DNA of 64,000 bases from Sulfitobacter sp. EhC04. GTDB lineage: Bacteria > Pseudomonadota > Alphaproteobacteria > Rhodobacterales > Rhodobacteraceae. The stretch lies in NCBI RefSeq assembly GCF_001650875.1, contig NZ_LXYI01000030.1, positions 1 to 64,000 of the forward strand. Direction: 5' to 3'. Under the pieces are notes generated by a model. That model ran no database searches. It was given only the letters and a program-made list of their open reading frames with translations, and was not told the DNA's origin. How positions within the stretch are numbered: the first letter of the stretch is position 1; every line of letters begins with the position of its first letter. A program made the translations under genes and the position numbers. Positions 12,195 to 35,388 of this stretch are shown piece after piece.

Positions 12195-12270
12195 GCGATG
12201 CCTTGCTTTTGCACCGATAAACACTGTGGTATGATCCATTCCCATGTCAGACACCCCAAAGGAGCCCGGT

Positions 12271-17007: not shown

Positions 17008-17116
17008 TCGAAAAAAGCCTCACTTCTGCCTCAGGCGCTGAATAGAGCGTCCTTGCGTCCTGCGCCAGCGCCATGACACGCCAATGGGGCAAAGTTATGA
17101 AGAACAAGGAAGAGCC

Positions 17117-18313
17117 GTGAAGATCGCCTATATCCTGAATACCTATCCGCAACCCTCGCAAAGTTTCATCCGCCGCGAGATACGCGCGCTGGAACGTCAG
17201 GGACACGCGGTGACGCGGATGGCCATGCGGCGCTTTGACGGCACATTGGTGGACCCGCAAGACATCTCTGAGGCGGAAAAGACCGACTACCTGCTTGCCA
17301 AGGGGCCGATGACACTGGTCCGCGACAGCCTGCGCGCCCTGCGCCGGGACGCGGCCGGTTTCTTTGCCGCCTTGCGGACTGCGCTGAAACTCGGCCGCCT
17401 GTCCGAAGTCGGCCGCCTGCGTCATCTGATCTATCTTGCCGAAGCGGCCCATGTGGCCGAGCAATGCCGCGCCGCCGGGATCACCCATGCCCACGCCCAT
17501 TTCGGCACAAACGCCCCCGCCGTGGCGATGCTGGCGCGGATGCTGGGCGGGCCGAAGTTTTCCTTCACCGTACATGGCCCCGAAGAATTCGATTCGCCCC
17601 GCGCCCTGTCACTGGGGGCCAAGATGCAGGCCGCCGATTTCACCGTCGCGATCAGCCAGTTTTGCCGCTCGCAGCTGATGCGCTGGGCCGATCACGCCGA
17701 TTGGGACCGCATCCATGTCGTCCATTGCGGCGTCGAACCCGCCCGGTTCAAGGACCCCGCACCACTTCCCCAGGGGCCGCGCCGTGTCGTGGCAATCGGA
17801 CGGTTGGTCGAGCAGAAAGGCCAGCTTGCCCTCATACAGGCGATGGCAGAGGTCACGTCCGACCTGCACCTGACCCAGATTGGCGACGGCGAAATGCGCG
17901 CGCAGATCGAGGCGCTGATCGACAAGCTTGACCTGCGCGCGCGCATCACCCTGACCGGCTGGGTCGATGAGACACGGGTGAACGCGGAACTGGCAGCAGC
18001 CCATGCGATGGTCATGCCCAGCTTGGCCGAGGGCCTTCCCATGGTGGTGATGGAGGCGATGGCCGCTGCACGCCCCGTCATCGCAACCTATATCGCGGGC
18101 ACGCCCGAACTGGTGCGCCCCGATGAAACCGGCTGGCTCGTGCCTGCGGGCGATGTCACGGCCCTGGCGAAGGCCCTGGACGGGCTTGCCACGGTGCCAC
18201 TGGCCAGATTGTCCGAGATGGCGCAGGCCGGACGCACACGGGTGCTGGCGCGGCATGACATTGACAAAGAGGCGCAGAAGCTGGCGGCGCTCATGGCCTC
18301 CGACCGGGTCTGA
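17117..18313 (+). CDS. GT4-family glycosyltransferase (WcaL-like)
   Basis: 398 residues from GTG 17117, preceded by AAGGAAGAG. N-terminal acceptor domain begins KIAYILNTYPQPSQSFIRRE, the usual opening of WcaL/exopolysaccharide GT4 enzymes. C-terminal nucleotide-sugar domain shows GRLVEQKGQ near residue 230 and the EX7E pair in EGLPMVVMEAM (about 305 and 313), followed by GTPELVRP. These are retaining transferases of GT-B fold at the cytoplasmic membrane face. It is convergent with the last GT2 of the PKS/NRPS operon and divergent from the flippase. The donor sugar is unknown. An upstream ATG at 17084 is possible but less well spaced. Confidence 0.9.
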   Translation: MKIAYILNTYPQPSQSFIRREIRALERQGHAVTRMAMRRFDGTLVDPQDISEAEKTDYLLAKGPMTLVRDSLRALRRDAAGFFAALRTALKLGRLSEVGRLRHLIYLAEAAHVAEQCRAAGITHAHAHFGTNAPAVAMLARMLGGPKFSFTVHGPEEFDSPRALSLGAKMQAADFTVAISQFCRSQLMRWADHADWDRIHVVHCGVEPARFKDPAPLPQGPRRVVAIGRLVEQKGQLALIQAMAEVTSDLHLTQIGDGEMRAQIEALIDKLDLRARITLTGWVDETRVNAELAAAHAMVMPSLAEGLPMVVMEAMAAARPVIATYIAGTPELVRPDETGWLVPAGDVTALAKALDGLATVPLARLSEMAQAGRTRVLARHDIDKEAQKLAALMASDRV

Positions 18314-18332: not shown

Positions 18333-19166
18333 TCAGCGCCCCCGCACCCAACGGTTCTTGCTGCGCAGGACGGGCAGGTGAATCGCAAGGCGCACCGCAC
18401 AAAAGGCGGCAAAACCCGGCGGGTCGGCCAGGGCCCGACGCCACAGCGGCGCAGCACCGGGCTGCGGGTCGTCATTTGCCATCAGTTCGGGATAGCGGCT
18501 TTCGATCTCGGCCACGCCGATGTCCTGCCTGCGCCGGACCTGCACCAACCGCGCAAAACCTTCGACCATGGGCCAGTCATAGGTGGCGGGCACGGCGAGG
18601 CGTTCACCGGGGGTAAAGTTCAGCCGCGCATAGGTGTCATCCGAGATGATGTCCGGCCAACCGCCCCAGCGCGCCCGGCCCGCCCGGTTCATGGCAAAGA
18701 CACCAAAGCCCGGTACGCCGCGCGTCATGAAAGGCGTTGTCAGCCAGAACCTTGTATAGGGCCGTGTCACGCCCCCGCCCTGCACCGTCACATTGGGCCG
18801 CCCGCTGGCGTAGCGCGGCGCATCCACGTCCAGCACCCCGGCCAGTTGCGCAATCAGCGGCGGTGACACAATCACATCCGCATCGAGATAGATCAGCACC
18901 CTGCCTGCTGCCGCCGCCTCGCCCGCGTTCAGCGCGCCCAGCTTGTTGCCCTCGGCCAGCTCCAGCACCTGCAGATGCCAGCCTTTCAACCCGGCCTGTT
19001 CGGCAAAGCCGCGCGCAATCGCCGCCGTGTCATCGGTGCAGCCATTGGCCACCACGATCACCTGCACGCCCCCCGCGACATCGTCCGAGGCCAGCAGCGC
19101 CGTCAGGCAGGCGGCCAGATAGGCGGCCTCGTCATGGGCCGGGATCAGAATGCTTGCCCGGCTCAC
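18333..19166 (-). CDS. GT2-family glycosyltransferase, last gene of the PKS/NRPS operon
   Basis: 277 residues. GT-A fold signature: SILIPAHDEAAYLAACL at the N-terminus, VVANGCTDDT near residue 39 and the DXD motif YLDADV near residue 94, then an acidic WPDIISDDTYARL segment near 165 that fits the catalytic base region. There is no clear membrane helix, so it probably acts at the cytoplasmic face. Its ATG overlaps the stop of the SGNH-glycosidase gene by 4 bases (19163-19166), showing translational coupling. It ends 20 bases from the convergent GT4 gene. The substrate is unknown; operon membership suggests a sugar on or near the PKS/NRPS product or the exopolysaccharide. Confidence 0.88.
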   Translation of the reverse strand: MSRASILIPAHDEAAYLAACLTALLASDDVAGGVQVIVVANGCTDDTAAIARGFAEQAGLKGWHLQVLELAEGNKLGALNAGEAAAAGRVLIYLDADVIVSPPLIAQLAGVLDVDAPRYASGRPNVTVQGGGVTRPYTRFWLTTPFMTRGVPGFGVFAMNRAGRARWGGWPDIISDDTYARLNFTPGERLAVPATYDWPMVEGFARLVQVRRRQDIGVAEIESRYPELMANDDPQPGAAPLWRRALADPPGFAAFCAVRLAIHLPVLRSKNRWVRGR

Positions 19167-21700
19167 TGAAACGCCACCAGCGCATCCCAGCGGGGGTTTT
19201 CATCCTCAAGATAGCGCAGCGCACCCCATGCCCCCCATTTGGTCGGGGCATAGACATCGGAATAGGCGTTGAACAACTGTCCGCCGACCGCTTTCCACCC
19301 CTCCAGCAAGGTGGTGTAGAGCGCGCCCATCTGCGGCGCGTAGTTCAGCGCCTGAAAGAAGGCGGTCAGTTCCGCGTCATCGACCATTGCGCCAATGCCC
19401 ACCACATGGCTGCCGCCCTCGTACATGATCAGGTCCAGCCCATGCGCCTGCGCCACCTGCGCGTGATAGGGCCAGACACGGGTGATCAGGTCACTGACCG
19501 TATCGGCACCGTCACCGCTGACCGCCCCGTCACGCAATTCGCGGCCCGCCAGTTCAAAGGCGAAATCAAAACGGTGCCGGGTGATGTACTCCTCCGCCGC
19601 CGCGCCGGTCAGACCTTCTGCATTGGCGGCGGCCACGGCCCGCGTGCGGCTTTCCTCCAGCCAGTTGCGGAGCATCGGCGCGCGTTCCGCCGTGCCAAGC
19701 CCGCCTGCGAAATAGCCCGACACCGCATAGGCATCAAAAGCCTCTGCCGGGGCTGGCACCCCCTCTGCCACCGCCAGCGGGGCGGTCAGCGCCTCGGTTT
19801 CCAGCCCCAGCCAGCCGGTCTGGCTTGAGATCACATTGACCAGCCGCGCGCGGTCTTCCCCGGCAAAGACCCCGGACCAGATCCGCGCCACTTCTGCCGC
19901 GCGCAGCCCGTAGTATTGCATCCACTTGTCCTGCGCATTCCAGCGCGCGCGGGCCTGCACATCGGCCCAGCGGGCCTGTTCGAACTGCCAGTTCCAGACC
20001 TCGTTGGAGAATTCCACATAGACCTTCAGCGCGGGATCAAGCCTGTCTTTCACCAGCGCCGCGAGTTGGCGCACAAAGCCGTCATCCGCCAGATGCGGCA
20101 CATTCAGCCAGATGTCGGCCTCAAGCTCATTGGCAAGCTGCACCATCACCTCGACCGGGACACCGCCTGCCCAGGTCACGTCACCGGGCAAGGGGCGGTC
20201 GGCCCATGCGGCCAGCTTGGCATTGTTCGTCTCCATCCAGTCCATCATGCGCAACGCGCTGAACTGGCCGATCCGCGCGGTCCAGGCCGGGTTGAACAGC
20301 GCGCCCGCCGCGTGGCGTTCAAGGTTTCCGAGTTTGACCACCGAAATGTCATGCGGCGGGTCAGACGTTTTAATGCGCTGAATGCGGATGTCCACGCTGC
20401 CGGGACCGGGCGTGTAGTCAAAACTCACTTCGCCCTTGCCATAACGCACATTCTGCGCGCGCCCCGTCACCTCGATCACGCCCTTGCCACGATAGGCCAG
20501 ACGATACCGCCCCTTGAGCGATGCAGCCTCTGGCGGCATGTCGGTCAGGATCAGCGTGCCGATGCTGCTCAGGCTGCGGGGCATCCGTATCGGCCAGCCG
20601 TTTTCATCCAGATGCCCGCCCGCCAGCAGTTCGGCGTATTCCATGCCGCCGAAGCGACCGGGTTCATGGCCCAGCCAGGGCCGCGCGGTCTTCATCACGT
20701 CGATAAACGGGGCCTGGGTGCTCCAGTCCGAGACGGCGGCAAGGCCGATGGCCACCCGGTTGGTGCCCTCGACCGTACCGCGCGCCGCCGCAACCAGATC
20801 AACAGCGGGTGTCTCTGGCAAAACCGGCGGGCCGGTGGGGGCCGCAGGAGCGGTGCTGGCGCGCGCTGGCCCATTGGCAGGGGGCACCGGGGCCACCACG
20901 CTGCCGCCATAGGCCTGCACCGCCTCAAATGCGACGCGCTGAAGCTGGCGGGCAAGGTCCGCGTCCGGCGTGTCAAAGGGCTGCCCCCAGCGGTCGTTGA
21001 AATCCACCGGCAGGCCCAGCGGGTCCTGCCCGGTCAGCGTGGCATATTGCACCATCGCGACAAAGTAATGGCCGGTGTCATTCAGGTGGATGTCATCGGC
21101 AAAAAGCGCGGACATATCCGTGAGCCCCGGTATCCGCTCCGCCGCAATCTCATCATAGAGACGCGCCATCGCCTGCCCGGCAGGGATCAGCCCGACCTGC
21201 GCACTGTCCGACCGGGTTGCGGCACCGACCTGGGCCACGATTTCCTCCCAGACCGGCAGATCCTGATCCAGCCGTTCCCGCCAGGGCGTGGCTGCGCCCT
21301 CGTCATGCTCAACCGCCGCACCTGTGCCGCTTTTCAGCGAATGCCAGGTTTCCTGCACATAGATATGCACATCCGGATTGGCCGAGGCCGCAAGCCCCGC
21401 AAAGGCCTGCGCATAGACATAGGTATCGGACCACTTCACATGGTTTGCCAGCGGAATGGCCTCGGTCAGGATCAAGTGGGTTGTGCCGCCTTCGGGCAGG
21501 ATCAACCGGGCGTCGATCCCTTCGGCATTGGCGGATTCGTCCCAATTGTATTTCAGCGGCGCGCCATTGATGATCTGGGCGCGCACCGTGCCTGCGCCGG
21601 TGCCCGCGCGCAGCGCCTCTTGCAGCATGTCGGGGCCGTCGGAACCGAACAGGCTGTGGCCCACCATCACCACCGATGCAGCAACCCCAAGCAGGCTCAT
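19163..21700 (-). CDS. Two-domain protein: SGNH hydrolase fused to a clan-A-like glycosidase
   Basis: 845 residues. The N-terminal domain (1-260) is an SGNH hydrolase: nucleophile S16 in VGHSLFG, and block V DDIHLND near residue 200 supplies Asp and His. A Pro/Ala linker (about 268-300) leads to a long C-terminal part. That part holds VYVEFSNEVWNW near 560, matching the NE acid/base motif of clan GH-A, and LIMYEGGSH near 760, a candidate nucleophile Glu. The N-terminal domain is a paralogue of the next gene upstream (both have ETWH and LIPAGQ.MA). No cleavable signal peptide is possible because the GHS strand begins at residue 9, so the location is puzzling. It may deacylate and cleave a glycan linked to this locus. 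The glycosidase call rests on motifs only. Confidence 0.72.
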   Translation of the reverse strand: MSLLGVAASVVMVGHSLFGSDGPDMLQEALRAGTGAGTVRAQIINGAPLKYNWDESANAEGIDARLILPEGGTTHLILTEAIPLANHVKWSDTYVYAQAFAGLAASANPDVHIYVQETWHSLKSGTGAAVEHDEGAATPWRERLDQDLPVWEEIVAQVGAATRSDSAQVGLIPAGQAMARLYDEIAAERIPGLTDMSALFADDIHLNDTGHYFVAMVQYATLTGQDPLGLPVDFNDRWGQPFDTPDADLARQLQRVAFEAVQAYGGSVVAPVPPANGPARASTAPAAPTGPPVLPETPAVDLVAAARGTVEGTNRVAIGLAAVSDWSTQAPFIDVMKTARPWLGHEPGRFGGMEYAELLAGGHLDENGWPIRMPRSLSSIGTLILTDMPPEAASLKGRYRLAYRGKGVIEVTGRAQNVRYGKGEVSFDYTPGPGSVDIRIQRIKTSDPPHDISVVKLGNLERHAAGALFNPAWTARIGQFSALRMMDWMETNNAKLAAWADRPLPGDVTWAGGVPVEVMVQLANELEADIWLNVPHLADDGFVRQLAALVKDRLDPALKVYVEFSNEVWNWQFEQARWADVQARARWNAQDKWMQYYGLRAAEVARIWSGVFAGEDRARLVNVISSQTGWLGLETEALTAPLAVAEGVPAPAEAFDAYAVSGYFAGGLGTAERAPMLRNWLEESRTRAVAAANAEGLTGAAAEEYITRHRFDFAFELAGRELRDGAVSGDGADTVSDLITRVWPYHAQVAQAHGLDLIMYEGGSHVVGIGAMVDDAELTAFFQALNYAPQMGALYTTLLEGWKAVGGQLFNAYSDVYAPTKWGAWGALRYLEDENPRWDALVAFQ

Positions 21701-22653
21701 GCCGCGACCCCGGTTTCAGGATGGCGCGCGATGACCTGCCAGACCACGTCCTGCATCACAGCGGCAACATCGGCAGAGGGCGCTGTTGCAGGGGCGCCGT
21801 CGGCGCGGGTCAACGCATGCGGCAGGCCGCGCGGATCGCGGTGATAGAGGACAGCGTAGTGGGTCAGTGCCACCAGATAGGCCCCCAGGTCATTGAAATG
21901 AATGGTGTCCGGGGTGCCATCGTCCCGTTTGGTAAAGAGATCATGCAGGCTGGTGACGCCGCCGATGCCGCCCGCGGCCTCGACCCGGCGGACAAAGGCC
22001 GCCATGACCTGACCGGCGGGGATCAGGTGGATCGGCGCATCGGTCGCGGCCAGCGCGGGGTATTTGACCCGGCCCTGCCAGAATTTGCGCAGGTCCCGGT
22101 CGATGCGCAGCAGCCAGCCGTTGCCATCGTCGGTGTGATGCCATGTCTCATAAAGGTAGATCCGAGTCTGCGGGTTCGCGTCCCAGGCCAGCCCGGCCCA
22201 GCGCGCGAGATATTCCGCCGCATCGTGATGGCGGATCGCATCGCGGATCTCGACCATCTCGGTCAGGACCAGGGCGTCATAACTGCCGGTGGCAAGCGCC
22301 TGTTTCGCGGGGCGAAACCACGCATGGGCGTTTTCCTCGGCAAAGCCGTTGATGGGCACGTCTTCCTCCCAATGGTCGCGCAGGGAGGTGCCCCAGCCCA
22401 GTTGCGAATGATAGCGATGTCCTGCCCCGGCAAGCTGCGCCAGCATCGCGGGCATGTCGCGCCCCACAAGGCTGTGACCCAGATGATAGACATTGAGCGC
22501 CGCATCGGGCGGATTGAGCGGCACCGCATAAAGCGCCTGCGCCTCTGCCGCGCCCTGCCGCCGGTCGCGGGTCCAGAACTGCCGACCTGCTGCCGCCACC
22601 AGCGCGAGGGCTCCCAGACCTGCAAGGGCGGTTCGGCGCGAGGCGGGTTTCAT
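21697..22653 (-). CDS. Tat-exported SGNH/GDSL-type hydrolase
   Basis: 318 residues from the ATG at 22653. A twin-arginine signal (KPASRRTALAGLGALALVAA) is followed by an SGNH fold with HLGHSLVG (S61) and DTIHFND near residue 252. It therefore probably acts as an esterase in the periplasm. Paralogue of the N-terminal domain of the downstream fusion, sharing ETWH, LIPAGQ and H-N-D blocks, so a duplication seems to have produced one exported and one apparently unexported form. Stop and next start overlap by 4 bases; the PPTase stop lies 4 bases upstream of this start. The substrate is unknown: an O-acyl group on a glycan or on the PKS/NRPS product would fit the context. Confidence 0.8.
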   Translation of the reverse strand: MKPASRRTALAGLGALALVAAAGRQFWTRDRRQGAAEAQALYAVPLNPPDAALNVYHLGHSLVGRDMPAMLAQLAGAGHRYHSQLGWGTSLRDHWEEDVPINGFAEENAHAWFRPAKQALATGSYDALVLTEMVEIRDAIRHHDAAEYLARWAGLAWDANPQTRIYLYETWHHTDDGNGWLLRIDRDLRKFWQGRVKYPALAATDAPIHLIPAGQVMAAFVRRVEAAGGIGGVTSLHDLFTKRDDGTPDTIHFNDLGAYLVALTHYAVLYHRDPRGLPHALTRADGAPATAPSADVAAVMQDVVWQVIARHPETGVAA

Positions 22654-22657
22654 CGGG

Positions 22658-23335
22658 TCAGGCTCCTTTGCCGTCACGTTGCCCAATCGCAACCCCGGTG
22701 ACAAGATGCCCGGCCACTTCGGCGAACCGCCCCGGCAGGCTATCGCCGACGGAAAACGGGCCGATGGGGTGCAGGAATCTCGCGTCAAAGCGCCCTGCGG
22801 GCGGATCGAACGTCACATCCAGAACCTCAAACCCAAAGAGCTGCCCCGTCAGCGGAAACTGCGCCTTGTAGGCGGCTTCCTTGGCCGCAAAGATCATCAG
22901 GCCAAGTTCCGCCAGCGGGATACCTGCATGACGGGATATTTCCACATCAGAACAAATGATTGGAATGATATCTTCATCCAATCTGTGAAGCTGTTCGGCA
23001 TCGAGGCCCAGCGATCTGACGCGGTTTGACACAACCGCCAGGCAAAGCTGCCTTGTATGGGTGATGCTGCCTGCCAGCCCCTGCGGCCAGTCCGGCGCGC
23101 GGTTGGCCTGAACCGGGACCGCCTGTGCGGGGCAACCGGCATCCTGCATCGCCATCCGCGCGGCGGCGCGGCCCGCTGCGAATTCGTTGCGGCGGGCGGG
23201 AACTGCCCCTGCCAGCGCTTCGGCTTCCCCCGCCCAGACCGGAGGTTGTGGCGCGCTCGGATCGGTCAGGCCAAGGCCCACCGGCACATCGAACAACCCG
23301 CGCACCGCCCGTTCAATTGCTTTTGCATCAGGCAT
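22658..23335 (-). CDS. 4'-phosphopantetheinyl transferase, EntD/Sfp class
   Basis: 225 residues from the ATG at 23335. Family motifs present: SLGLDAE near residue 107 (Mg-binding Asp and Glu) and IFAAKEAAYKAQ near 150 (the (W/F)xxKEA core). N-terminal WAGEAEAL and RRNEFAAGRAAAR fit EntD-like enzymes. It transfers phosphopantetheine from CoA to the conserved serine of carrier domains, here most likely the NRPS PCP (S1446) and the PKS ACP near residue 1806. The start lies inside the last codons of the NRPS gene (8-base overlap), so the two are coupled. A longer frame runs back to 23809 inside the NRPS gene and was rejected. Confidence 0.92.
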   Translation of the reverse strand: MPDAKAIERAVRGLFDVPVGLGLTDPSAPQPPVWAGEAEALAGAVPARRNEFAAGRAAARMAMQDAGCPAQAVPVQANRAPDWPQGLAGSITHTRQLCLAVVSNRVRSLGLDAEQLHRLDEDIIPIICSDVEISRHAGIPLAELGLMIFAAKEAAYKAQFPLTGQLFGFEVLDVTFDPPAGRFDARFLHPIGPFSVGDSLPGRFAEVAGHLVTGVAIGQRDGKGA

Positions 23336-26300
23336 CCGCTGTGCGCCGCCCTGCCCGCATGGCACGACGTTTCTGAACGATATCAGCAGTTTCGGCAGGC
23401 AGAACCGGCGCGGCATGGCGCATTTCCGCGCCCCTTTGCGGTGCAGGCTCTGACGGTGACGGCTGGCGCTTGCGCCTTGTGCCACCGGTGGCCTTGTCCA
23501 GATGCCCGGCCAAGGCCCCAAGGGTCGGAAAGCGAAAGATGTCGGTGATCGACAGCGCCACGCCGCCCAATGCCGCCTTGATGTCGCGGTGCGCCTGTAC
23601 CGCCAGCAGGGAATGACCCCCGAGGGAAAAGAAGTTGTCCTCCGCCCGGATGTCGGCGACGCCCAGCAGCCCGGTCCAGACTTCTGCAATGCGCTGCACC
23701 GTCTCTGCGCTGCCTTGTGTCGGCGCGTCCTCGACCCGATCCGGCGTGACCGCTTTGGGCCGGGGGGCTGCACCCCGCGCTGTCGGTGCGGGCAAGGCCT
23801 TGCGGTCAATTTTCTTGTTTGGGGTCAACGGCATGGCAGCCAACCCTACCACGGCGCCGGGGACCATGATGGCAGGCAGGTCCTGCATCAACGCCGCCTT
23901 CGCGGCCGCCTCGCTTATCGCGTTGGCGGGGGTGACATAGCCCACCAGTTGCGCCCCGCCGGGACCGTCGCGCGCGATGACAACGGCCTGTGTGACACCC
24001 GGCAGGCCCGCAAGCCGCGCCTCGATCTCACCCAGTTCGATCCGGTGACCGCGTATCTTGACCTGCGCATCGGCGCGGCCTGCAAAATGCAGGCATCCCG
24101 CCGCATCCCATGACACCACATCACCGGTGCGGTAGAGCTTGCCAGCGCCAAAGGGATTGTCCACGAACCGCTCTGCCGTCATCTCCTCGCGGTGCCAGTA
24201 ACCGAGGGTGACGCCGTCACCGCCGATCCACAATTCCCCAGCAACACCAGCTGGTTGCGGCAGCATCTTTTCATCCAGGATGAAGACCTGCGTATTGGCG
24301 ATGGGCGTCCCGATGGGGGCTGTGACATCTGCGGCATCCGCCACCATCTGCGTGGTTGACCAGATGGTTGTTTCGGTCGGGCCATACATGTTCTGGATGC
24401 TGGCCTGTGTATGCGATTGCAGCGCCGCGACCAGTGAGCCGGGCAAGGCCTCCCCCCCGATCATCAGCTGTTGCACCCCTGCCAGGGCCTGCTGCGCTTC
24501 CTCGTTGATGACCAGCATCTGCGCCATCGAGGGGGTGCATTGCAGATGCGTCACCCCATGGCGCTGGATCTGCGCGGCGATGGAGAAATCATCCGCCGCC
24601 AGCGTGATCTCGCGGTTGGCTTCGGCCAGCACCTGCGCCAGCGGTTTCAGCCCTTCCAGCACATCCGGCACCGGAATGCCGTAGTCGATCAGGCAGGCAA
24701 CCTCGTCCACGCCGATCGCCTTGAGTTCTTCAGTACGCGCCAGCCCGTCCGCCACGGTGCCGAACATGCCGCTGTCGTTGAAATACCGCTGAAAGGCGAA
24801 TTCCAGAATCGCGTCCATTTCCTCATCGGACAGGCCCTCAAGGTTGACGTCAAAGGGGTTGGTCGCGCCTTCGGGCTTTTTGAAGGCGGGGAAGGCCCAG
24901 GCGTATTGCTTGATCAGACCGGCGGCGGAGCGCAGGTAATCCTTCATCGGCTCGCGCGCGACCTCTTCGGCGGCTTCGCGGGTGTCGTCGAGATAGGTGT
25001 GCAGCATCACCGTGACCGTGAAATCCGCCGGGTCATGGCCCGCCTCGCGCAGGGCGGCGTGGTAGATCTTGATCTTGCCCGCGACTTCCTCGACCGATTG
25101 GCCCAGCAGGTGGGTCAGCACATTGGCCCCGATCTCGCCCGCTTCTTTCCAGGTCTGCGGGTTCCCGGCGGTTGTGACCCAGATCGGCAGCTTTGCCGAG
25201 ACCGGGCGCGGCTGGGTGATGACGGCGTGGGGAGTGCCGTCTTTCTTTGGAAATTCAACCGCTTCCCCGGCCCAGAGCCTGCGCAGCTGGTCGATGGCTG
25301 CATACATTGCGGGCTTGTTTTCGGGCGGCGTGTTTTCTGGGCGCAGCACGAAGTCATCCGGCTGCCAGCCGCTGGCGATGGCCAGCCCGACGCGCCCGTT
25401 GGTCAGATTGTCGATCACCGCCCATTCCTCGGCGATGCGGGCGGGATGGTGCAGCGGGGCGACGCAGGACCCGGCCCGGATCGCAAGGTTCGAGGTCACC
25501 GCAGCAACCGCGGCGCCGGTGACAGAGGGGTTCGGATAGGGGCCACCAAAGGCGTGGAAATGCCGCTCCGGCGTCCAGACGGCATTGAAGCCGTGGGTGT
25601 CGGCGAACCTCGCGCCTTCCAGCAAGAGTTCGTATTTGGCAGGGCCGACGCCATCGTCGTTGCCCCAGTAGAAGATGTTGAAATCAATGGCGCGCGCTGA
25701 CCGCGCAAGGGGGCCATTCGACACCAGCGTGCGGCTTTCGTCGCCGGTCAGCACGAGCTTCACGCCGCGCGAGATGGTCCAGAACAGTTCCAGCACCGAG
25801 ATGTCGAAAGACAGCGAGGTGACGGCCAGCCAGACCGACGCGCTGTCATGGTCGATGCGGTCGTCCATCCCGGCAAAGAAATTGGCGACATTGCCGTGGC
25901 TGACCATCACCCCCTTGGGCGTGCCGGTAGAACCGGAGGTATAGATCAGATAGGCCAGATCGTCGGGGGTGGCGCGGGCATCGGGATTGTGGTCGGGCAT
26001 GGCCGAATGATCGGCACCCACCATCACGGTTTTCGCTTCGTTTTCAGGCAGCTGCGCGGCGATCTTCGCCTGTGTCACGATCAGCGGTGCTGCGCTGTCG
26101 CTGATGTAATGCGCAATGCGGTCGGCTGGATAGGCCGGGTCGAGCGGGACATAGGCCCCCCCCGATTTCAGGATCGCCAGCGCCCCGATCATGAGGTCAG
26201 GCCCCCGCGTGCAATAAAGACCGATGGGCATGTCCGGTCCGGCCCCCTCTGCCAGCAGGGCATGGGCCAGCCGGTTCGCCGCGACATTGAGCGCGGCATA

Positions 26301-27947: not shown

Positions 27948-28939
27948 GTTCTGTCCTCCGTAGCGGGGCGGCGGGGTGTTGCGGTGCCGGATTCGGTGCG
28001 CAGGCCAAGCCCGTGCCGCGCAAGATCGCGGGTGAAAAAGGCGGGGTCCTGCGGCCTGCGCCCGGTGAGGGTGCAGCGCAGGGCGTGCAGCGCCGAGCCG
28101 GTCAGCCGCGCGCCCCATGCGGCGGCGGCATAGGCCCGGCCATGGGTCTTGATGAAATAGTGGCGGCGCGAGGCGAACCAATAGGCCGGCATGCGCTGCC
28201 ATTCCTTCATGCCGGTGGAGACGGAGCCGATGTGGACCACTTTGGCCTCTGGCACGTACCAGCAGGACCAGCCCGCGTGCGCGCCGCGCTTCATCAGGTC
28301 GGTTTCCTCGAAATAAAGAAAGAAGGTCTCGTCAAATCTGCCGATTTCATCCAGTGCCTCGGCGCGGATCATCACGCTGGCCCCTGCGGCCCAGTCCACC
28401 TGCGTGGTCTGTTCCGGCAGCGGGGGGGCCACGATGGCATGGCGCAGCAGGCGCGAGACGGGGCCGAAACGCACCGCGCCCTCGAATTCTCCCGCGATGG
28501 AGGGGAAGCGGAAGGCGGTGGTATGGGGCAGATCATCCTCGCCCCGCACATGGCTGGCGGCGAACCCGGCGCGCGGATGGCGCGCCATGTGGTCCAGCAA
28601 GGTTGCGATGCAGCCCGGATCGGGAAAGGCATCGGAATTCAGCAGATAGAAGAAATCCGGCGCGCTGCCGTCGGACATCTGTTCGGCCAGCCCGATGTTG
28701 CAGCCCGCCCCGAAGCCGCCGTTGTGCCCCGACAGGATCAGCCGCACCCGCGTGCCCAGATTCCATTCGGCCAGCGCCTGTTCGAAAATCCCCATCGACC
28801 CGTCGCCGGAGGCATTGTCGACAATCACCAGTTCCGCCGTTTCCGGCATGTCGGCCAATGCCGCCCTTGCCGCGCGCAGGGTCATCTGCGGGGTGCGGTA
28901 GTTCAGCAGCACAACAAGCAATCGGGGGTCAGCCATCAT
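27944..28939 (-). CDS. GT2-family glycosyltransferase, rhamnosyltransferase-like
   Basis: 331 residues. N-terminal LLVVLLNYRTPQMTLRA and VIVDNASGDGS, then GHNGGFGAGCNIGL and the DXD-type LLNSDAFPDPG, with EETDLMKR near residue 220. This pattern is typical of WbbL/rhamnosyl- or galactofuranosyl-transferase-like GT2 proteins. It sits between the PKS and NRPS genes with 4-base overlaps at both ends, so it is co-translated with them. Two adjacent ATG codons (28939 and 28936) are possible starts. Its position strongly suggests that a sugar is attached to, or made alongside, the PKS/NRPS product. Donor and acceptor are unknown. Confidence 0.9.
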   Translation of the reverse strand: MMADPRLLVVLLNYRTPQMTLRAARAALADMPETAELVIVDNASGDGSMGIFEQALAEWNLGTRVRLILSGHNGGFGAGCNIGLAEQMSDGSAPDFFYLLNSDAFPDPGCIATLLDHMARHPRAGFAASHVRGEDDLPHTTAFRFPSIAGEFEGAVRFGPVSRLLRHAIVAPPLPEQTTQVDWAAGASVMIRAEALDEIGRFDETFFLYFEETDLMKRGAHAGWSCWYVPEAKVVHIGSVSTGMKEWQRMPAYWFASRRHYFIKTHGRAYAAAAWGARLTGSALHALRCTLTGRRPQDPAFFTRDLARHGLGLRTESGTATPRRPATEDRT

Positions 28940-31900
28940 TCCGCCGCCGTCGCCTGCAGGTCATCGTGATGCACCAATGCGGCGGCAATCACCTCGCGCA
29001 ACTCCTGCGCCAGAACCGTCACATTCGGGGCCAGCACCATGCTGACGTGATCGCCCGGCACTTCGATCACCTCCATATGCGGCGCGTATCTGCGCCAGTC
29101 GTTGTCCGCAAAGACATATTCGCGTTCGGCGCTGACCCAATTGCCGTTGGTCACCTGCCAGTGGAAATCCTGCGGCGGGCGGAACAGGGTCATCGGCCCG
29201 TCCCAGGTTGGCGTCTGATACTGGCCGACCGCGTTCAGGAAGGCCGCCTGAATCTTGTGGTTGTTGAACTCCGCCCCCGGCGCGTCCTGTCCGGGGCTGT
29301 GCAGGCCCTTGCGTTTCTCCATCTCCCAGGCCCAGCGGTTGCGCGCCCATTCGGCCAGATATCCCGGCCCCTTGGCGCGCAGTTCCGCCAGTTTGATCAG
29401 CGCCTTGTCGGGGCGGCTGAGCGACGGGCGCACCGGCAGCGGCGTGTCGAGCATCGCCAGCACGGCCACCTCATCGCCTGCCGCGCGCAACTGCTGTGCC
29501 ATTTCATAGGCGGTGATCCCGCCGCCGGAATAGCCCGCTAGAAGATAGGGGCCTTCGGGTTGCAGGCGCTTGATTTCGTTCAGATAATCCTCTGCCGCCT
29601 CGGGGATTGTCGCATGGGGCTGGGTCTCTCCGATCAGGCCGCGCGCCTGCACGCCGATCACCCGGCGTTCGGCGCTGAACGGCAAGGCCATATGGCGCAG
29701 GTTCAGCACATTGCCGAACATCCCCGCCACCACAAAAAGCGGTGCCGCCTGCTTGTGGCTGCTCTGGTTCAGCGGCACCAGGAATTCGAACTTCTCCGGT
29801 GCCACGACCCCGTCGCCGCCACCGCCTGAAACCTCGCCCGCGCCGCCGGTTTCCGCCGCGATCAGGGCGGCGCATTTCGCGATGGTCGGGGCCTCGAACA
29901 GGACCGAGATCGGGAATTCCACCTTGAACGTGCGTTTGACGTTGGCGAACAGGCGCACGGCGATCAGCGAATGCCCGCCGAGATCAAAGAAACTGTCCTC
30001 GACCCCCACGGGGCTGACGCCCAGCAGGTTCTCCCACATCCCGGCCAGACGTTCCTCTATCCCGTTGCGGGGCGCGACATAGCTGCCGTCCAGATCGGGG
30101 CGATCAAAGCTCTGACCGCTTTTCACCGGGGCCACGGCGGGCAGATCGGCCTGCGCCATCAGCGCGGACAGCGGCAGGGAAGAGACCATGACCTGCGGGC
30201 GGTTCAGCGCCATCGCGCGGCGCAATGCCTCCGGCCCTTCGGCAGCGCGGATGCCTTGCGATACCAGATAGGCCAGCCGTTCCTCGGCGGCGGAGAGCGG
30301 CGTGTCGTCCCGGCCCTCATCCTCAAAGCGGACCTCGGCCGCGGTCAGGGGGGTGGTGCCGAAACCGCCCTCAAGGCGTTTCATCGCAAAATCGCGGACC
30401 TCGACCAGCACCTTGCCGGACGGGTCGGTCAGGGTGACGTCGAAACGGGCAAAACCATCGCTGGCCTTGCCGGAGGCGAGCCGCACATGCGAGCGGATTT
30501 CGGCAGGCAGGCTGCCATGCACCCGGATCAGCCCATAAGAGACCGGCACCCACAGATGTGTCGCGCCATAGCCCGGCACCAACGATATGGCCCAGCCGGT
30601 TGCAAGGTCCATCAGGCCGGGATGCAGGATATGACCGGCTTGCAGGTCCTCCCGCGCGTCATCCGGCAGGGCGAGTGTCGCAAGCCCCTCGCCCGCGCCA
30701 AGGGCGGTTTCGCGCAGCACATGCCAGCGCGGCCCAAAGGACAGATGCGCCTCCTGCGGGGAGATCAGGCGCGTCTCGCCGGCCCTTTGCACGTCACCGC
30801 AGCGCGCGGAAATCGCTGCGAGGTCCAGCGCATGGGGTCGCGCCTCGGCCAGCGGGGCCAGATTGGCCTGGGCGTTCAACTGCCAGCCCTGCTGGCCGCC
30901 AAAGACGCAATCGCTGCGCATTTCGGCGCTGAAGCCACGGCCCCGGCCCTGAAGCGTGATCTGCATCTGGCGCGCGTCGCCCTCGGCCACCGGCATGGCG
31001 CGCAGGAAATAGAGGTCTTCGATGTCAAAGGCCTTGAAGCCCTGCGCCGCTGCCGCTTCGGCCAGCAGTTCGATATAGCCGGTGCCGGGCAGGATCGCCT
31101 GCCCGTCCCTGGTGCGGTGCTGGTCCAGCAGCCAGTGATCGGTGCCCAGCGGGGCACTCAGCACCGGATCGCCGCCTGCATCCGCACCGGCAGATTTGAT
31201 CAGCGCCGCATCGACCGGGCGGGGTGGCAGCACGTCGCTGGCCGCCCCCGGCAACGCATTGGCGGCCATGCCGACATCTGACCAGACCCCCCAGTTGACC
31301 GCGACAACCTTTGTCTTGCCGCCCCGGCGCGCGGCGGCAAAGGCGTTGAGCCAGGCGTTTGCGGCCACATAATCGACCTGCCCCGCCGACCGGGTCGCGG
31401 TGGAGGTCGAAGAGAACAGCACCAGCAGATCCAGCGCGCCGTCGGGCAGCAACTGGTCCAGCACCCGCAGACCCTGCACCTTGGGCGACAGGACCGCATC
31501 CATCTGGGCATCGCTCTTGCCCAGCATCGGCGCATCGTCCAGCACACCGGCGGCGTGGATCACCCCGGTCAGCCCGCCGTGCCGCGCTGTCAGATCGTCA
31601 ATCACCCGGCGCATCTGGGCAAGGTTGGCCACATCGCCGCCCGCCACCTCGACGCTGCCGCCTTTGGCTTTTGCGATCTCTTCCAGACGCATCACCGCCT
31701 GCATCCGCCGCGCAGAGCGGTCGGCGGTGCCGTTTTTGGCGATATGGGCCTGCCAGGTGGTCCGTTCGGGCATGGCATCGCGTGCCAGCAGCACCACATT
31801 GGCCTTGTGCCGGGTCAGGATATCCGCCGCGAGCGTCTGGCCGATCCCGCCAAAGCCGCCGGTGATCAGATATGTGCCGCCGTCGCGGAACTGCGCTGTT

Positions 31901-34900
31901 TCAGCCGGGGCCAGCGGCAGGGGTTTATAGCCCATCTCGAACCGCTTTTCGCCGCGATAGGCCGCAATGCGGTTGGCGGGGGTGACCATCAGGTCCTCGA
32001 TCAGCCGGTTGGTCAGGTCAGGTTGGGGAATTGCCGGGGCGGATTTGGCGAACCACCCTGCCCGCGCGGCCAGCGGCGGCACCGGGTCAAGGTCGATCTG
32101 GGTCGCGGTGACACCCGGCACTTCGCGGGTGATCACGCCGACCGGGCCGGACACCAGCGCCTTTTCGGGATGCGGCAAGGGTTCATCCGTCACCTGTGCC
32201 GCACCGGTGGTAAAGACGCTCAGATGCAAGGGCGCGTCGATGCCTGCCTCGGTGATGGCCTGTGCCAGCCAGGTCAGACTCCAGAAGCCCTGTTCGATGT
32301 TGCGGTCAAAGGTGCTTGAGCCGGGGCGCGGGGCGACCTGATCGTCGGTCAGCCAGAAATGCGCGATCCGGTCGGGCATTTGCCCCCCCTCGCGCAGGGC
32401 CGCGATCAGCTGGTCATAGCCCGCCCGCCCCTGTTCGGCGGCAAGGGTGAAACTGTCATCGCCGGTGCTGGCAAAGGCATCGCCCGCGCGGACCGTGACA
32501 ACCCGGTGACCGGCTGCGCGCAGCTTTGTCCGCATCGGGGCGGAAAGCCCGGCCTCATCCGCGAAGAACAGCCAGGTCAGCGGCGTTGCTGCCAGATCGG
32601 CCACTGCATCCACATCCACATCGGCAAAGGCAGGCCGCCAGCTTGGCACCGCACCCCACTCGGCAATGTCATCCGCCCGCGTCAGCGCAGGCGCGGCTGC
32701 GGCGCTGACCGCCTTGCCCGGTTCGATGAAAAAGCGCGCGCGCTGGAACTGATAGGTCGGCAGCAGCACCCGGTTGCGCCGCGCCTCGCCCCAGATCTGC
32801 GACCAGTCGGCATTGACGCCGCAGGCCCAGAGCCGCGCGAAGACGGAGATGAAATAGACATCATCGGCGATGTTCTGTTCGGGATGCCGCAGCGATGACA
32901 TCACCTGCCCCACGCCGACATTCGGATGCATCATCGCAAGCGAGGACAGCGCCTTGCCCGGACCAACCTCCAGATAGACCCGTTTGCGCGCGGCGCTGAG
33001 CGTGGTCATGCATTCGGCGAAGTTCACGGTATTGCGCAGTTGGGCGACCCAGTAATCGGGGTCAGTCGCCTGTTCCGGCGTGATCATCTCGCCCGTGCGG
33101 TTGGAGGCAAAGGGCATCTGCGGCGTTTGCAGGTTCAGATCCCCAAGGAAGGCGCGGTAGCGGTCAAGGATGCCTTCCAGCATCCGGCTGTGCGCGGCAA
33201 TGTCGATGGCGATGCGCCGGTGGTCCAGCCCCGCCCCGGTCAGCCGGTCCTGCATGGCATCCAATGCGGCCTGCGGGCCGGATACGGCGATCAGTTCAGC
33301 GGCGTTCACCGAAGCAATGTCCAGATCCTCGCCCAGCAGCGGTTCGATCGCCGCCAGCGGGGCCGAGATTGACAGCATGCCGCCTGCGGGCACTTCGTCA
33401 AACAAGCGTCCGCGCAGCAGCACCAGATCAATCAGGTTCTCGAATGTCATCACCCCCGCCAGACAGGCCGCGACGTTTTCGCCCATGGAATGGCCGACCA
33501 TGGCGGCGGGTTTCACGCCCCATGACATCCAGAGCCGCGCCAGCGCATATTCGGTGATGGCGATCAGCGGCAATTGCACGGATGGTTTTTTCAGCGTCTC
33601 GTCCGCGGCCTGCACCTGATCCGCATCCGGCAGCCAGAGCGCGCGAATGTCATAGTCGAGCTGCGGTTGCAGATGCGCCAGCCCGCGGTCCATCCACTCG
33701 GCAAAGACCGGCTCTGTCTCGTAGAGGTCGCGCGCCATGCCTGCGTATTGCGCGCCGCCGCCGGGGAACATGAAGACCACTTCCGGGCTCTCGCCCAGCG
33801 CATCATGGGTAAAGACGCGGCGGGCATCGCCTGCCTCCAGCAGATCGGCGGCCTGCGTTGCGGTTTCGGCGACTACGACGCGGCGCTTGTCAAAGGCGCG
33901 GCGGCCCTGTTTGAGCGTAAAGGCCACATCGGCCAGCGGCTGTTCGGGATGGGCGCGCAGATGGGCGACCAGGGCGGCGGTATTGGCATCCAGCGCCGCC
34001 TTGGTATGGCCTGAGATCACCAGCGGCTGGAACGGCCAGTCGCTGGCGTCAGAGGCGGCGCGCGCCGGTGCTTCCTCGATGATCGCATGGGCATTGGTGC
34101 CGCCCACGCCCAGCGCGTTGATCGCGGCGCGGCGCGGGGTGTCGGCGGGCGCCCAGTCGGTCAGCTGGTCGTTGACGCGGAACGGGCTGCCCGCGAAGGG
34201 GATTGCGGGGTTCGGGGCCTCAAACCCCAGGGACGGGGGAATTTGTTTGTGATGCAGGGCCAGTGCGGCCTTGGCAAAGCCTGCGACCCCGGCGGCGGTG
34301 TCCAGATGGCCGATGTTGGTCTTGACCGACCCGATGCGGCAGAAATCCGTGGCGTCGGTCTCGCTCCGGTAGGCTTCGGTCAGGGCCGCCACCTCGATCG
34401 GGTCGCCCAGATAGGTGCCGGTGCCGTGGCATTCGACCATGCCGATGCTTTGCGCCGCAACTCCGGCGGCATCCAGTGCCGCCGTGATCGCGGTGGTCTG
34501 GCCATCGACCGAAGGTGCGAGATACCCCGCCTTGGCCGCGCCATCGTTGTTGACCGCCGATCCCTTGATCACCGCCCAGATGTGATCGCCGTCCGCGACC
34601 GCATCGCTGAGCCTGCGCAGCGCCACGCAGCCCGCGCCGGAGCCAAAGACGGTGCCCTGCGCGCGGTGGTCGAAGGCATGGCAATGCCCGTCGGGCGACA
34701 GGATTTCGTTTTCCTTGAACAGATACCCCCGCCCCTGCGGCAATTCGATGGTCACGCCGCCCGCCAGCGCCATGTCCACCTCGCCCGCGCGCAGGGCGGC
34801 GCAGGCATAGTGGATCGCCACCAGCGAGGTGGAACAGGCGGTCTGGAGGTTGATCGACGGCCCCTTGAGGTCAAACACATGGCTGACGCGGGTGGACAGG

Positions 34901-35388
34901 AAATCCTTGTCGTTGCCGGTGTGGCGCAGCAGGAACATGCCCACATCGTCCACCAGGTCGGGGTTGGAGCAGATGTTGAAATAGAAATAGCTGCCCATGC
35001 CGCAGCCCGCATAAACGCCGATGTCGCCGGGAATCGTTTCAGGCGGATGGCCCGCCTGTTCCATCGCTTCCCATGCCACTTCGAGGAACTTGCGGTGCTG
35101 GGGGTCGAGGATTGCCGCATCCTTGGGAGAAAAGCCAAAGAAGTCTGGGTCGAAGGTCTCGAACCCGTCCAAGACAGCGGCGGCGGGCACGTAGTTCTTG
35201 CGGGCGATGTTTTCGGGGCTTTCGCCCGCCTCCAGAAGCTCCTGCTTGGACAGGCGGCGGATGCTTTCCACGCCATCGCGCAGGTTGGCCCAATAGGCAT
35301 CGACACCGGCGGCACCGGGGAGGTTCACGGACATGCCGACAATGGCAATGTCTTCACCGGTCAGGGTGCGGTTTTTTGACGTGCTCAT
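28936..35388 (-). CDS. Type I polyketide synthase, KS-AT-KR-DH-ACP-TE
   Basis: 2150 residues from the ATG at 35388 (GGGGTGA 7 bases upstream; an in-frame TTG 6 bases earlier is less likely). KS: C185 (TACSTS), H321 (ECHGTG), H361 (NIGHLD). AT: S634 in GHSMGE; the specificity position reads IAAH, which is neither the malonyl HAFH nor the methylmalonyl YASH form. A structural KR-like part lies before the KR at about 1168-1370 (TGGFGGIG, LDD motif, S-Y-N set), which points to B-type reduction. DH about 1405-1690 with DQHRTRDGQAILPG and HPGLMD. ACP S near 1806 (DLGGHSL). TE about 1870-2150 with GYSGGG near 1953. KR before DH reverses the usual order. It is the first gene of the operon. One round of extension, reduction and dehydration, then release, is predicted. 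Confidence 0.94.
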   Translation of the reverse strand: MSTSKNRTLTGEDIAIVGMSVNLPGAAGVDAYWANLRDGVESIRRLSKQELLEAGESPENIARKNYVPAAAVLDGFETFDPDFFGFSPKDAAILDPQHRKFLEVAWEAMEQAGHPPETIPGDIGVYAGCGMGSYFYFNICSNPDLVDDVGMFLLRHTGNDKDFLSTRVSHVFDLKGPSINLQTACSTSLVAIHYACAALRAGEVDMALAGGVTIELPQGRGYLFKENEILSPDGHCHAFDHRAQGTVFGSGAGCVALRRLSDAVADGDHIWAVIKGSAVNNDGAAKAGYLAPSVDGQTTAITAALDAAGVAAQSIGMVECHGTGTYLGDPIEVAALTEAYRSETDATDFCRIGSVKTNIGHLDTAAGVAGFAKAALALHHKQIPPSLGFEAPNPAIPFAGSPFRVNDQLTDWAPADTPRRAAINALGVGGTNAHAIIEEAPARAASDASDWPFQPLVISGHTKAALDANTAALVAHLRAHPEQPLADVAFTLKQGRRAFDKRRVVVAETATQAADLLEAGDARRVFTHDALGESPEVVFMFPGGGAQYAGMARDLYETEPVFAEWMDRGLAHLQPQLDYDIRALWLPDADQVQAADETLKKPSVQLPLIAITEYALARLWMSWGVKPAAMVGHSMGENVAACLAGVMTFENLIDLVLLRGRLFDEVPAGGMLSISAPLAAIEPLLGEDLDIASVNAAELIAVSGPQAALDAMQDRLTGAGLDHRRIAIDIAAHSRMLEGILDRYRAFLGDLNLQTPQMPFASNRTGEMITPEQATDPDYWVAQLRNTVNFAECMTTLSAARKRVYLEVGPGKALSSLAMMHPNVGVGQVMSSLRHPEQNIADDVYFISVFARLWACGVNADWSQIWGEARRNRVLLPTYQFQRARFFIEPGKAVSAAAAPALTRADDIAEWGAVPSWRPAFADVDVDAVADLAATPLTWLFFADEAGLSAPMRTKLRAAGHRVVTVRAGDAFASTGDDSFTLAAEQGRAGYDQLIAALREGGQMPDRIAHFWLTDDQVAPRPGSSTFDRNIEQGFWSLTWLAQAITEAGIDAPLHLSVFTTGAAQVTDEPLPHPEKALVSGPVGVITREVPGVTATQIDLDPVPPLAARAGWFAKSAPAIPQPDLTNRLIEDLMVTPANRIAAYRGEKRFEMGYKPLPLAPAETAQFRDGGTYLITGGFGGIGQTLAADILTRHKANVVLLARDAMPERTTWQAHIAKNGTADRSARRMQAVMRLEEIAKAKGGSVEVAGGDVANLAQMRRVIDDLTARHGGLTGVIHAAGVLDDAPMLGKSDAQMDAVLSPKVQGLRVLDQLLPDGALDLLVLFSSTSTATRSAGQVDYVAANAWLNAFAAARRGGKTKVVAVNWGVWSDVGMAANALPGAASDVLPPRPVDAALIKSAGADAGGDPVLSAPLGTDHWLLDQHRTRDGQAILPGTGYIELLAEAAAAQGFKAFDIEDLYFLRAMPVAEGDARQMQITLQGRGRGFSAEMRSDCVFGGQQGWQLNAQANLAPLAEARPHALDLAAISARCGDVQRAGETRLISPQEAHLSFGPRWHVLRETALGAGEGLATLALPDDAREDLQAGHILHPGLMDLATGWAISLVPGYGATHLWVPVSYGLIRVHGSLPAEIRSHVRLASGKASDGFARFDVTLTDPSGKVLVEVRDFAMKRLEGGFGTTPLTAAEVRFEDEGRDDTPLSAAEERLAYLVSQGIRAAEGPEALRRAMALNRPQVMVSSLPLSALMAQADLPAVAPVKSGQSFDRPDLDGSYVAPRNGIEERLAGMWENLLGVSPVGVEDSFFDLGGHSLIAVRLFANVKRTFKVEFPISVLFEAPTIAKCAALIAAETGGAGEVSGGGGDGVVAPEKFEFLVPLNQSSHKQAAPLFVVAGMFGNVLNLRHMALPFSAERRVIGVQARGLIGETQPHATIPEAAEDYLNEIKRLQPEGPYLLAGYSGGGITAYEMAQQLRAAGDEVAVLAMLDTPLPVRPSLSRPDKALIKLAELRAKGPGYLAEWARNRWAWEMEKRKGLHSPGQDAPGAEFNNHKIQAAFLNAVGQYQTPTWDGPMTLFRPPQDFHWQVTNGNWVSAEREYVFADNDWRRYAPHMEVIEVPGDHVSMVLAPNVTVLAQELREVIAAALVHHDDLQATAAE

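Follow-up and report, generated by a model that had tools for sequence, protein, structure and literature searches.

Why should genes for a polyketide synthase (PKS) and a nonribosomal peptide synthetase (NRPS) lie among genes for exopolysaccharide export? The question arises from a window of 64,000 nucleotides of Sulfitobacter sp. EhC04 (contig NZ_LXYI01000030.1), in which a sequence-only reading had described a seven-gene PKS/NRPS operon and suggested that its small product is glycosylated, or is joined to the polymer and trimmed from it. We consider it somewhat more probable than otherwise that all seven genes work together within a Wzx/Wzy exopolysaccharide pathway and supply its polymer with a small acyl group.

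The operon and its polysaccharide neighbours

All seven genes lie on the minus strand with intact frames at 18333-35388. Their junctions, from PKS to GT2b, are overlaps of 4, 4 and 8 bases, a gap of 4 bases and two overlaps of 4 bases, which bears out the gene set, strand and spacing (overlaps of 4-8 bases or a gap of 4) described earlier. The features of the locus are as follows.

11358..12194, plus strand: priming sugar-phosphate transferase, ExoY-like (PF02397, E 7.8e-57)
12244..13317, plus strand: probable cytoplasmic P-loop partner of Wzz, a weak match (PF01656, E 0.0038, below cut-off)
13445..14755, plus strand: Wzz-like co-polymerase (PF02706, E 0.0019, below cut-off)
15661..17007, minus strand: Wzx flippase (PF13440, E 8.6e-46)
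17084..18313, plus strand: GT4 glycosyltransferase (PF13692)
18333..19166, minus strand: GT2b, glycosyltransferase family 2 (PF00535)
19163..21700, minus strand: fusion of an SGNH hydrolase and a putative clan GH-A-like glycosidase, SGNH-GH (residues, structure matches)
21697..22653, minus strand: SGNH hydrolase, twin-arginine, DUF4886-like fold (residues, model against 4i8i)
22658..23335, minus strand: 4'-phosphopantetheinyl transferase, PPTase (PF17837, PF01648)
23328..27947, minus strand: NRPS of 1539 aa with formyl transferase, vestigial C domain, A domain interrupted by a luciferase-like monooxygenase, and PCP (Pfam/NCBIfam, motifs)
27944..28939, minus strand: GT2a, glycosyltransferase family 2 in the PKS-NRPS interval, with a 4-base overlap on each side (PF00535)
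28936..35388, minus strand: type I PKS of 2150 aa, KS-AT-KR-DH-ACP-TE (Pfam domains)
35973..37427, minus strand: Wzy-like polymerase, co-directional with the PKS and upstream of it across a 584-base gap (PF04932 below cut-off; NRPS co-inheritance)
37633..38379, plus strand: WecG/TagA/CpsF family glycosyltransferase (PF03808, E 2.4e-42)
38389..39324, minus strand: GT2c glycosyltransferase (PF00535)
39321..40364, minus strand: GT2d glycosyltransferase (PF13704)

Pfam and NCBIfam profiles back the names of the PKS, NRPS, PPTase and both GT2 genes of the operon; the same search gave no match for the SGNH hydrolase or SGNH-GH, and no transporter family match among the seven genes. The surroundings named in the earlier reading (a priming transferase, Wzz-, Wzx- and Wzy-like genes and glycosyltransferases) are present. 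The matches of the priming transferase and Wzx are clear. The Wzy-like gene scores 27.7 bits against PF04932, where the cut-off is 31.7, and since the Wzz match also falls below its cut-off, both of these names combine a weak match with position. No acyltransferase for placing an acyl group on a sugar was found among the cluster genes scanned, which counts against the acyl substituent proposed below. Two OPX genes (PF02563) are present in the same genome on contigs other than that of the window, and are candidate exporters only. From its gene content, the locus is predicted to encode a Wzx/Wzy-dependent polysaccharide pathway.

For the two hydrolases we used conserved residues and structure models. 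In the smaller enzyme R6 R7, H60 S61, N102, D249 and H252 are kept in 15/15 aligned rows, and in SGNH-GH S16, N45, D202 and H205, together with N566, E567 and E761, are kept in 16/16, with roles assigned by eye in both proteins. The SGNH fold test covers the small enzyme, whose model aligns over 222 residues with the DUF4886 protein 4i8i, an SGNH hydrolase (Z 19.0, rmsd 3.0); the SGNH part of the fusion is poorly modelled. The SGNH-GH model matches TIM barrels of the GH51 and heparanase type with Z 20-23 (about 23 for GH51, at about 10% identity), and the Asn-Glu pair, the second Glu and the barrel point to a clan GH-A-like glycosidase half, an assignment at the level of the clan. Homologues of this larger hydrolase start with signal-like segments.

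Conservation and co-inheritance

Gene order is kept in all 17 of the congeners that carry a full-length NRPS (23 were searched, and 6 are without it), with few losses and at NRPS identities of 61-68%, so the arrangement is more than chance. More widely, co-inheritance ties the NRPS and PKS to a particular Wzy and to a glycosyltransferase of the WecG type, and their usual neighbours are polysaccharide genes. In a family sample of 198 genomes from 197 genera, the NRPS was found in 73, this Wzy type in 75 and both in 68 (Fisher p 2e-38, shared ancestry ignored). Seven Wzy-matched genomes are without the NRPS, and five NRPS genomes, mostly fragmented assemblies, are without a Wzy match (G502, G562, G548, G559 and G428); the Wzy search of G305, G364, G548, G562, G559 and G502 returned nothing at E 1e-5, an empty answer that is no proof of absence. 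The PKS is present in 74 of the 198, one NRPS genome having no PKS match and two PKS genomes no NRPS match. The WecG family occurs in 69 of the 73 NRPS genomes against 21 of the 125 others, and wherever such a gene shares a contig with the NRPS it lies within 30 kb (59/59), nearly always within 15 kb (57/59).

All 64 rows of the core Wzy clade (support 98/98) come from genomes with the NRPS, compared with 4 of the 11 rows outside this clade. SGNH-GH was found in 59 genomes, 58 of them with the NRPS, several of these pairs being far apart or on other contigs. Among the genomes in which the genes share a contig yet are separated, three have Wzy 50, 176 and 416 kb from the NRPS, and a further three have SGNH-GH at distances of 163, 229 and 581 kb.

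A homologous NRPS/PKS pair outside the family, in G305 and at about 40% identity, has Wzz, DegT, GT4 and Wzy_C genes as its neighbours. The pair also occurs without polysaccharide genes nearby, alone in G364 (outside the family) and in G589 (within it), and G548 carries a related NRPS within a different, larger PKS cluster. An operon far from polysaccharide genes had been named beforehand as evidence against a functional link, and G364 and G589 are two such cases among the loci read. The earlier interpretation is upheld in part: conserved linkage and co-inheritance argue strongly for the functional link, and these two loci stand apart.

The gene content flanking the NRPS/PKS pair differs between clades.

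Three loci (L103, L113 and L114) had seemed to hold polysaccharide genes and the trio of SGNH, SGNH-GH and GT2b genes without PKS/NRPS, and ten more were without the NRPS in their flanks, a pattern suggestive of an accessory cassette. We dropped this idea because the pattern is an artefact of 10-kb flanks: the NRPS lies elsewhere in 12 of these 13 genomes, in a recheck that excluded six short or cut NRPS-less loci (L058, L102, L118, L121, L122 and L125). Provided that the contig numbers correspond, the NRPS of L103 and L114 is found some 7.6-7.7 kb beyond wzy.

Predicted chemistry of the NRPS and PKS

The NRPS-PKS assembly line is small and looks intact. The term peptide-ketide used for its product in the earlier reading was generous, as the actual content is one glycine-type A domain and one PKS module. 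The PKS catalytic residues (KS, AT, KR, DH, TE) are kept in 29/29 rows. In the formyl transferase, the Asn, His and Asp that we take to be catalytic read NHD in 95/96 rows and NFD in G364. The C domain is vestigial, HHxxxD being absent in 15/15 rows, and no Pfam condensation domain was found in the NRPS at E 0.001. A TIGR04020 monooxygenase domain (466.5 bits) lies between the A-domain halves, at about NRPS residues 756-1106.

With code positions placed by motif anchors, the A-domain code is DILQLGMIW or DILQMGMIW in 89/96 NRPS rows. The available part of one report gives DILQLGMIWK as common to four glycine A domains with a monooxygenase (PMC12283262); the first nine letters are identical to that code in 35/96 of our rows and one letter off in 54/96. 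From the code we predict a glycine-type A domain. An alignment to LgrA did not settle the substrate, and we found no open-licence paper carrying DILQMGMIWK, DILQLGLIWK or the shortened forms.

As far as the accessible text of PMC5764310 describes them, the FT-A(Gly)-PCP loading modules of phthoxazolin, oxazolomycin, conglobatin and rhizopodin likewise fuse a formyl transferase to a glycine-type A domain and a PCP and feed a PKS, whereas here a monooxygenase splits the A domain, a C remnant stays, and the PKS is one module with a TE. Unlike the oxazole-polyketide examples, this operon is without a partner cyclodehydratase, none of its seven genes matching an ATP-dependent cyclodehydratase. In the MtaG type of myxothiazol biosynthesis a monooxygenase interrupts a glycine A domain, as here (TIGR04020), within a terminal, amide-releasing module; in contrast, the protein here has no working C or TE domain and probably acts before, not after, the PKS. 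Because the glycine monooxygenase of myxothiazol ends the chain as an amide, that precedent would not yield the acyl product drawn below and counts against it.

Proposed role, rival readings and published counterparts

The NRPS and PKS lie inside the polysaccharide genes and are inherited with them, and so probably make a small non-sugar part of the polymer. The PPTase would arm the carriers, the NRPS would load glycine, formylate it and oxidise it through the inserted monooxygenase, and the PKS would add a malonate-type unit, which would be reduced and dehydrated. The TE would then free a small (about C4) acyl group, to be placed on a sugar of the repeat unit before flipping and polymerisation. 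GT2a and GT2b may build the acyl-bearing part of the repeat unit, and editing or trimming of the exported polymer may fall to the glycosidase and both SGNH enzymes. We infer both the chemistry of the acyl unit and its attachment to the polymer.

That the product is a free secreted small molecule (an antibiotic, a signal or a metallophore), to which GT2a may add a sugar and which is merely co-regulated with the polymer, both serving surface life, seems to us unlikely. It would suit the unaccompanied pairs of G364 and G589, the larger cluster of G548 and the cataloguing of such a hybrid, in the available text of PMC10584327, as an orphan secondary-metabolite cluster, but against it stand the nearness of a WecG-type gene in every same-contig case, a core Wzy clade with zero rows from NRPS-less genomes, and seven operon genes with no transporter match. 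A siderophore with an N-formyl-N-hydroxyglycine hydroxamate is a further, purely hypothetical product. We give a little less weight still to a polymer anchor, primer or end cap, that is, a lipid-like terminus or starter and not a repeated substituent. Multidomain PKS/FAS-like genes occur in surface-polysaccharide capsule loci, RkpA in Sinorhizobium and WcbR in Burkholderia, and these precedents, which like the present locus set a multidomain PKS among surface-polysaccharide genes, favour such a product; those loci are not known to have an NRPS bearing a formyl transferase and a monooxygenase. Iterative action of the PKS, a single module with KR and DH, would also be compatible with the sequence. 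However, the priming transferase is of the usual sugar-phosphate type, so the chain start appears ordinary, and a glycine/formyl/monooxygenase module would be more in keeping with a small polar unit than with a lipid.

Co-location without shared function, by one insertion of the pair into the locus followed by joint descent, we regard as very improbable. Shared ancestry inflates all of the co-occurrence counts, and the varying surroundings of the pair also speak for this reading, but co-inheritance persists where Wzy or SGNH-GH has moved away, and the polysaccharide linkage recurs in the other family represented by G305.

Our preferred reading, an acyl unit made for the polymer, also bears on published clusters. 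The sequence-only reading knew of no described pathway with this gene set. Published work already lists the operon, as an orphan NRPS-like/T1PKS cluster, and probably covers the exopolysaccharide (EPS) locus too, as that of Phaeobacter inhibens; as far as their available text goes, the papers do not connect the two (PMC10584327, PMC4062626, PMC10984933). No title or abstract start in the open-licence literature joined this PKS/NRPS to polysaccharide. In the portions available, the Roseibaca domitiana cluster has an NRPS of 4527 nt, an interval of 992 nt and a T1PKS of 6333 nt, sizes and spacing like those of NRPS-GT2a-PKS here, and is discussed beside antitumour argyrin enzymes (PMC10584327), while the P. 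inhibens T5 tags Inhi_1972 (PKS) and Inhi_1974 (NRPS) leave one gene between them, like GT2a (PMC4062626). Both sources handle the cluster, in that text, as secondary metabolism, whereas our comparison ties it to a Wzx/Wzy locus; the words exopolysaccharide and glycosyltransferase are absent from the Roseibaca main text (PMC10584327).

The P. inhibens chromosomal EPS locus, as the accessible text presents it, builds a joint matrix with algae, and exoY deletion lowers attachment and matrix (PMC10984933). Like the present locus, with its putative Wzy and Wzz, it has an ExoY-like primase, Wzx, Wzy, Wzz, unusual glycosyltransferases and no OPX in the cluster; its authors report no sugar-modification genes around it, where this locus has the PKS/NRPS, and 'polyketide', 'nonribosomal' and 'NRPS' are absent from the main text (PMC10984933). 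If our reading is true, the PKS/NRPS could be those missing genes, and an orphan 'NRPS-like/T1PKS' cluster carried by 73/198 family genomes would be part of a matrix polymer, a role directly testable in a genetically tractable laboratory strain. More tentatively, at a little under even confidence, the EPS repeat unit of many marine Rhodobacterales may carry an NRPS-PKS group (a formylated, oxidised glycine plus one ketide), making this orphan 'natural-product' cluster class matrix-polysaccharide machinery active in algal-bacterial aggregates.

By locus tags and gene content, the operon probably belongs to the P. inhibens chromosomal EPS locus. The published chromosomal exoY qPCR primers, compared with 80 named loci, gave a best total of 6 mismatches, uninformative on identity. 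In the available text, the PKS of the same strain is printed as PGA1_c04930; this is 42 tags away from its NRPS (PGA1_c05350) and at odds with the placement, unless two strains had their numbers exchanged in printing (PMC4062626). The exoY gene is PGA1_c05260 in Table 1 and c05320 in the methods (PMC10984933). The nine steps from PGA1_c05260 to c05350, as given in those portions, equal the NRPS-to-primase distance among the matched genes of our Phaeobacter locus, L092.

The operon and its polysaccharide neighbours

The seven minus-strand genes described in the sequence-only reading are all present. On re-measurement, in order from PKS to GT2b, the first three junctions overlap by 4, 4 and 8 bases, the fourth is a 4-base gap and the last two overlap by 4 bases each.

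18333-35388, minus strand: operon of PKS, GT2a, NRPS, PPTase, SGNH, SGNH-GH and GT2b
19163-21700, minus strand: SGNH-GH, the hydrolase-glycosidase fusion within it

In domain profile searches the PKS has the order KS-AT-KR-DH-ACP-TE, and the NRPS joins a formyl transferase to an A domain, which a TIGR04020 luciferase-like monooxygenase interrupts, and to a carrier; no condensation domain turned up in it. Polysaccharide genes flank the operon as that reading had it: an ExoY-type primase, a Wzz-like pair, Wzx, GT4 and a Wzy-like gene (the Wzy and Wzz names come from sub-threshold profile matches), together with a WecG-type glycosyltransferase and two further GT2-type genes. RkpA and WcbR are precedents for a PKS-like gene within a capsule locus. 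The nearest named locus is that of Sulfitobacter sp. DFL-14 (93% in SGNH-GH). The window's own genome carries a second NRPS-like gene (contig C23, about 174755-176521), which matches stretches of the A and carrier domains at 38% identity.

Full-length NRPS was found in 18 of 40 genomes searched, the window's own included; all 18 belong to the window's genus, and a full-length copy is missing from 6 of 23 other members. Gene order from the primase to GT2d is the same in the 17 other NRPS-bearing congeners, save that no wzx was detected nearby in G007, G006, G018 and G013, no PPTase in G006, no GT2c in G007 and G018, and no GT2d in G002. At 40455-42106 (minus strand), after the glycan genes, are a diguanylate cyclase (GGDEF) gene and a putative H-NOX-type heme-NO sensor gene, the latter named by eye. 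Homologues of both lie inside the 40 kb examined in 14 of 17 congeners, and their retention near the locus suggests that c-di-GMP controls the polymer.

Linkage and co-inheritance across the Rhodobacteraceae

We sampled 198 genomes of the family, from 197 genera, and found NRPS in 73, PKS in 74, Wzy in 75, SGNH-GH in 59 and the WecG family in 90. NRPS and Wzy occur together in 68 genomes, NRPS alone in 5, Wzy alone in 7 and neither in 118. NRPS and SGNH-GH are both present in 58, with NRPS alone in 15 and SGNH-GH alone in 1, and the WecG family is found in 69 of 73 NRPS genomes versus 21 of 125 others. Fisher p values for co-occurrence (2e-38, 1e-34 and 4e-29) take no account of shared ancestry and serve purely as description. 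In 53 of the 73 NRPS genomes Wzy shares the NRPS contig at a distance of up to 30 kb (up to 15 kb in 42), and in 3 it lies farther off on that contig (50, 176 and 416 kb); it is on a different contig in 12, and 5 have no Wzy match. The WecG family shares the NRPS contig in 59 of 73, always within 30 kb, is confined to other contigs in 10, and is absent in 4.

In a Wzy tree of 75 rows, 64 form a core clade with 98/98 support; all 64 are from NRPS genomes, including loci L103 and L114, whose genomes proved to carry NRPS on genome-wide search; outside the clade, 4 of 11 rows come from NRPS genomes. That every core row comes from an NRPS genome argues, within the limits of shared ancestry, that this Wzy subfamily goes with the assembly line.

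For ARRANGEMENTS and exceptions, 13 of the 73 NRPS genomes, picked for diversity, were read over about 30-40 kb. In eight of the first ten the NRPS-PKS pair adjoins Wzz-, Wzx-, WecG- or other glycan genes, and in G557, G503 and G511 it is likewise polysaccharide-linked. G589 has PPTase-NRPS-PKS amid housekeeping genes, and G548 has a related NRPS inside a larger PKS cluster, apparently a different hybrid cluster; a search of that genome gave no match to a Wzy of the window's type. On G548 contig C1, 377000-416800 (L167, L168), the 44% NRPS is flanked by two very large PKS genes. In the class sample, 11 of 385 genomes gave an NRPS match at E 1e-100, and two of these matches are full-length and outside the family: in G305 the pair has Wzz, DegT, GT4 and Wzy_C genes as neighbours, whereas in G364 it stands alone.

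NRPS was not seen in the 10-kb flanks of 19 of 80 named loci. Reading it there as an optional cassette was dropped, since a genome-wide search of 13 of these 19 genomes, leaving out six short or cut loci, found NRPS in 12; SGNH-GH is therefore often distant from NRPS and rarely without it. Linkage and co-inheritance of the operon with polysaccharide genes are strong, and the operon is likely the maker of a putative polymer substituent.

Probable assembly-line chemistry, and the hydrolases

Among 96 NRPS rows, some of which are one genome twice, the formyl transferase residues NHD are kept in 95 and the carrier Ser in all 96, and the A-domain code is DILQMGMIW in 54, DILQLGMIW in 35 and one of five other variants in 7. 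Residues of the PKS KS, AT, KR, DH and TE domains are kept in 29 of 29 rows. According to the available part of PMC12283262, DILQLGMIWK is common to four glycine A domains whose monooxygenase domain cleaves the glycine backbone, and the available part of PMC5764310 describes formylglycyl loading modules. The code and these modules make glycine the likely NRPS substrate and a small product likely. Alpha-hydroxylation of formylglycine could lead to a break into formamide and a glyoxylyl thioester.

The twin arginine and SGNH residues of the small SGNH enzyme are invariant in the homologue alignment. Its model best matches 4i8i (DUF4886; Z 19.0), with acetyl xylan esterases next near Z 13; plain Foldseek at E 0.001 gave no match. 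In the SGNH-GH model (mean pLDDT 76, SGNH part poorly modelled), residues 305-845 match GH51 at Z 22-23 and heparanase/beta-glucuronidase enzymes at Z 20-21 (Foldseek E 3.5e-4). Judged by eye, four SGNH-GH homologues from other clades have a signal-peptide-like start and those of the window and Sulfitobacter do not; the enzyme may leave the cell along with the Tat-type protein next to it, or work within the cell. A 757-residue fusion homologue (stop to stop) at about 1831-4011 of L175 (G467) retains the glycosidase and begins with a signal-like segment, but its SGNH part seems to be missing.

Relation to published loci

According to the available text of PMC10584327, 18 of 37 species carry an NRPS-like/T1PKS hybrid; as gene sizes agree, the Roseibaca hybrid is the window's operon, an identification covering Roseibaca only among the 18. 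The accessible part of PMC4062626 lists PKS Inhi_1972 with NRPS Inhi_1974 and, for DSM 17395, NRPS PGA1_c05350 with PKS PGA1_c04930; the latter two do not suit a pair, unless a printing error interchanged the numbers of two strains. In the available portion of PMC10984933, deletion of chromosomal exoY (PGA1_c05260 in Table 1, c05320 in the methods) reduced attachment, and the matrix bound neither ConA nor SBA; the authors note no OPX in that cluster and report no sugar-modification genes around it. On locus tags rather than sequence, this EPS locus is taken to be the same as the window's: the nine tags from c05260 to the NRPS equal the step count between the matched genes of a Phaeobacter locus (L092).
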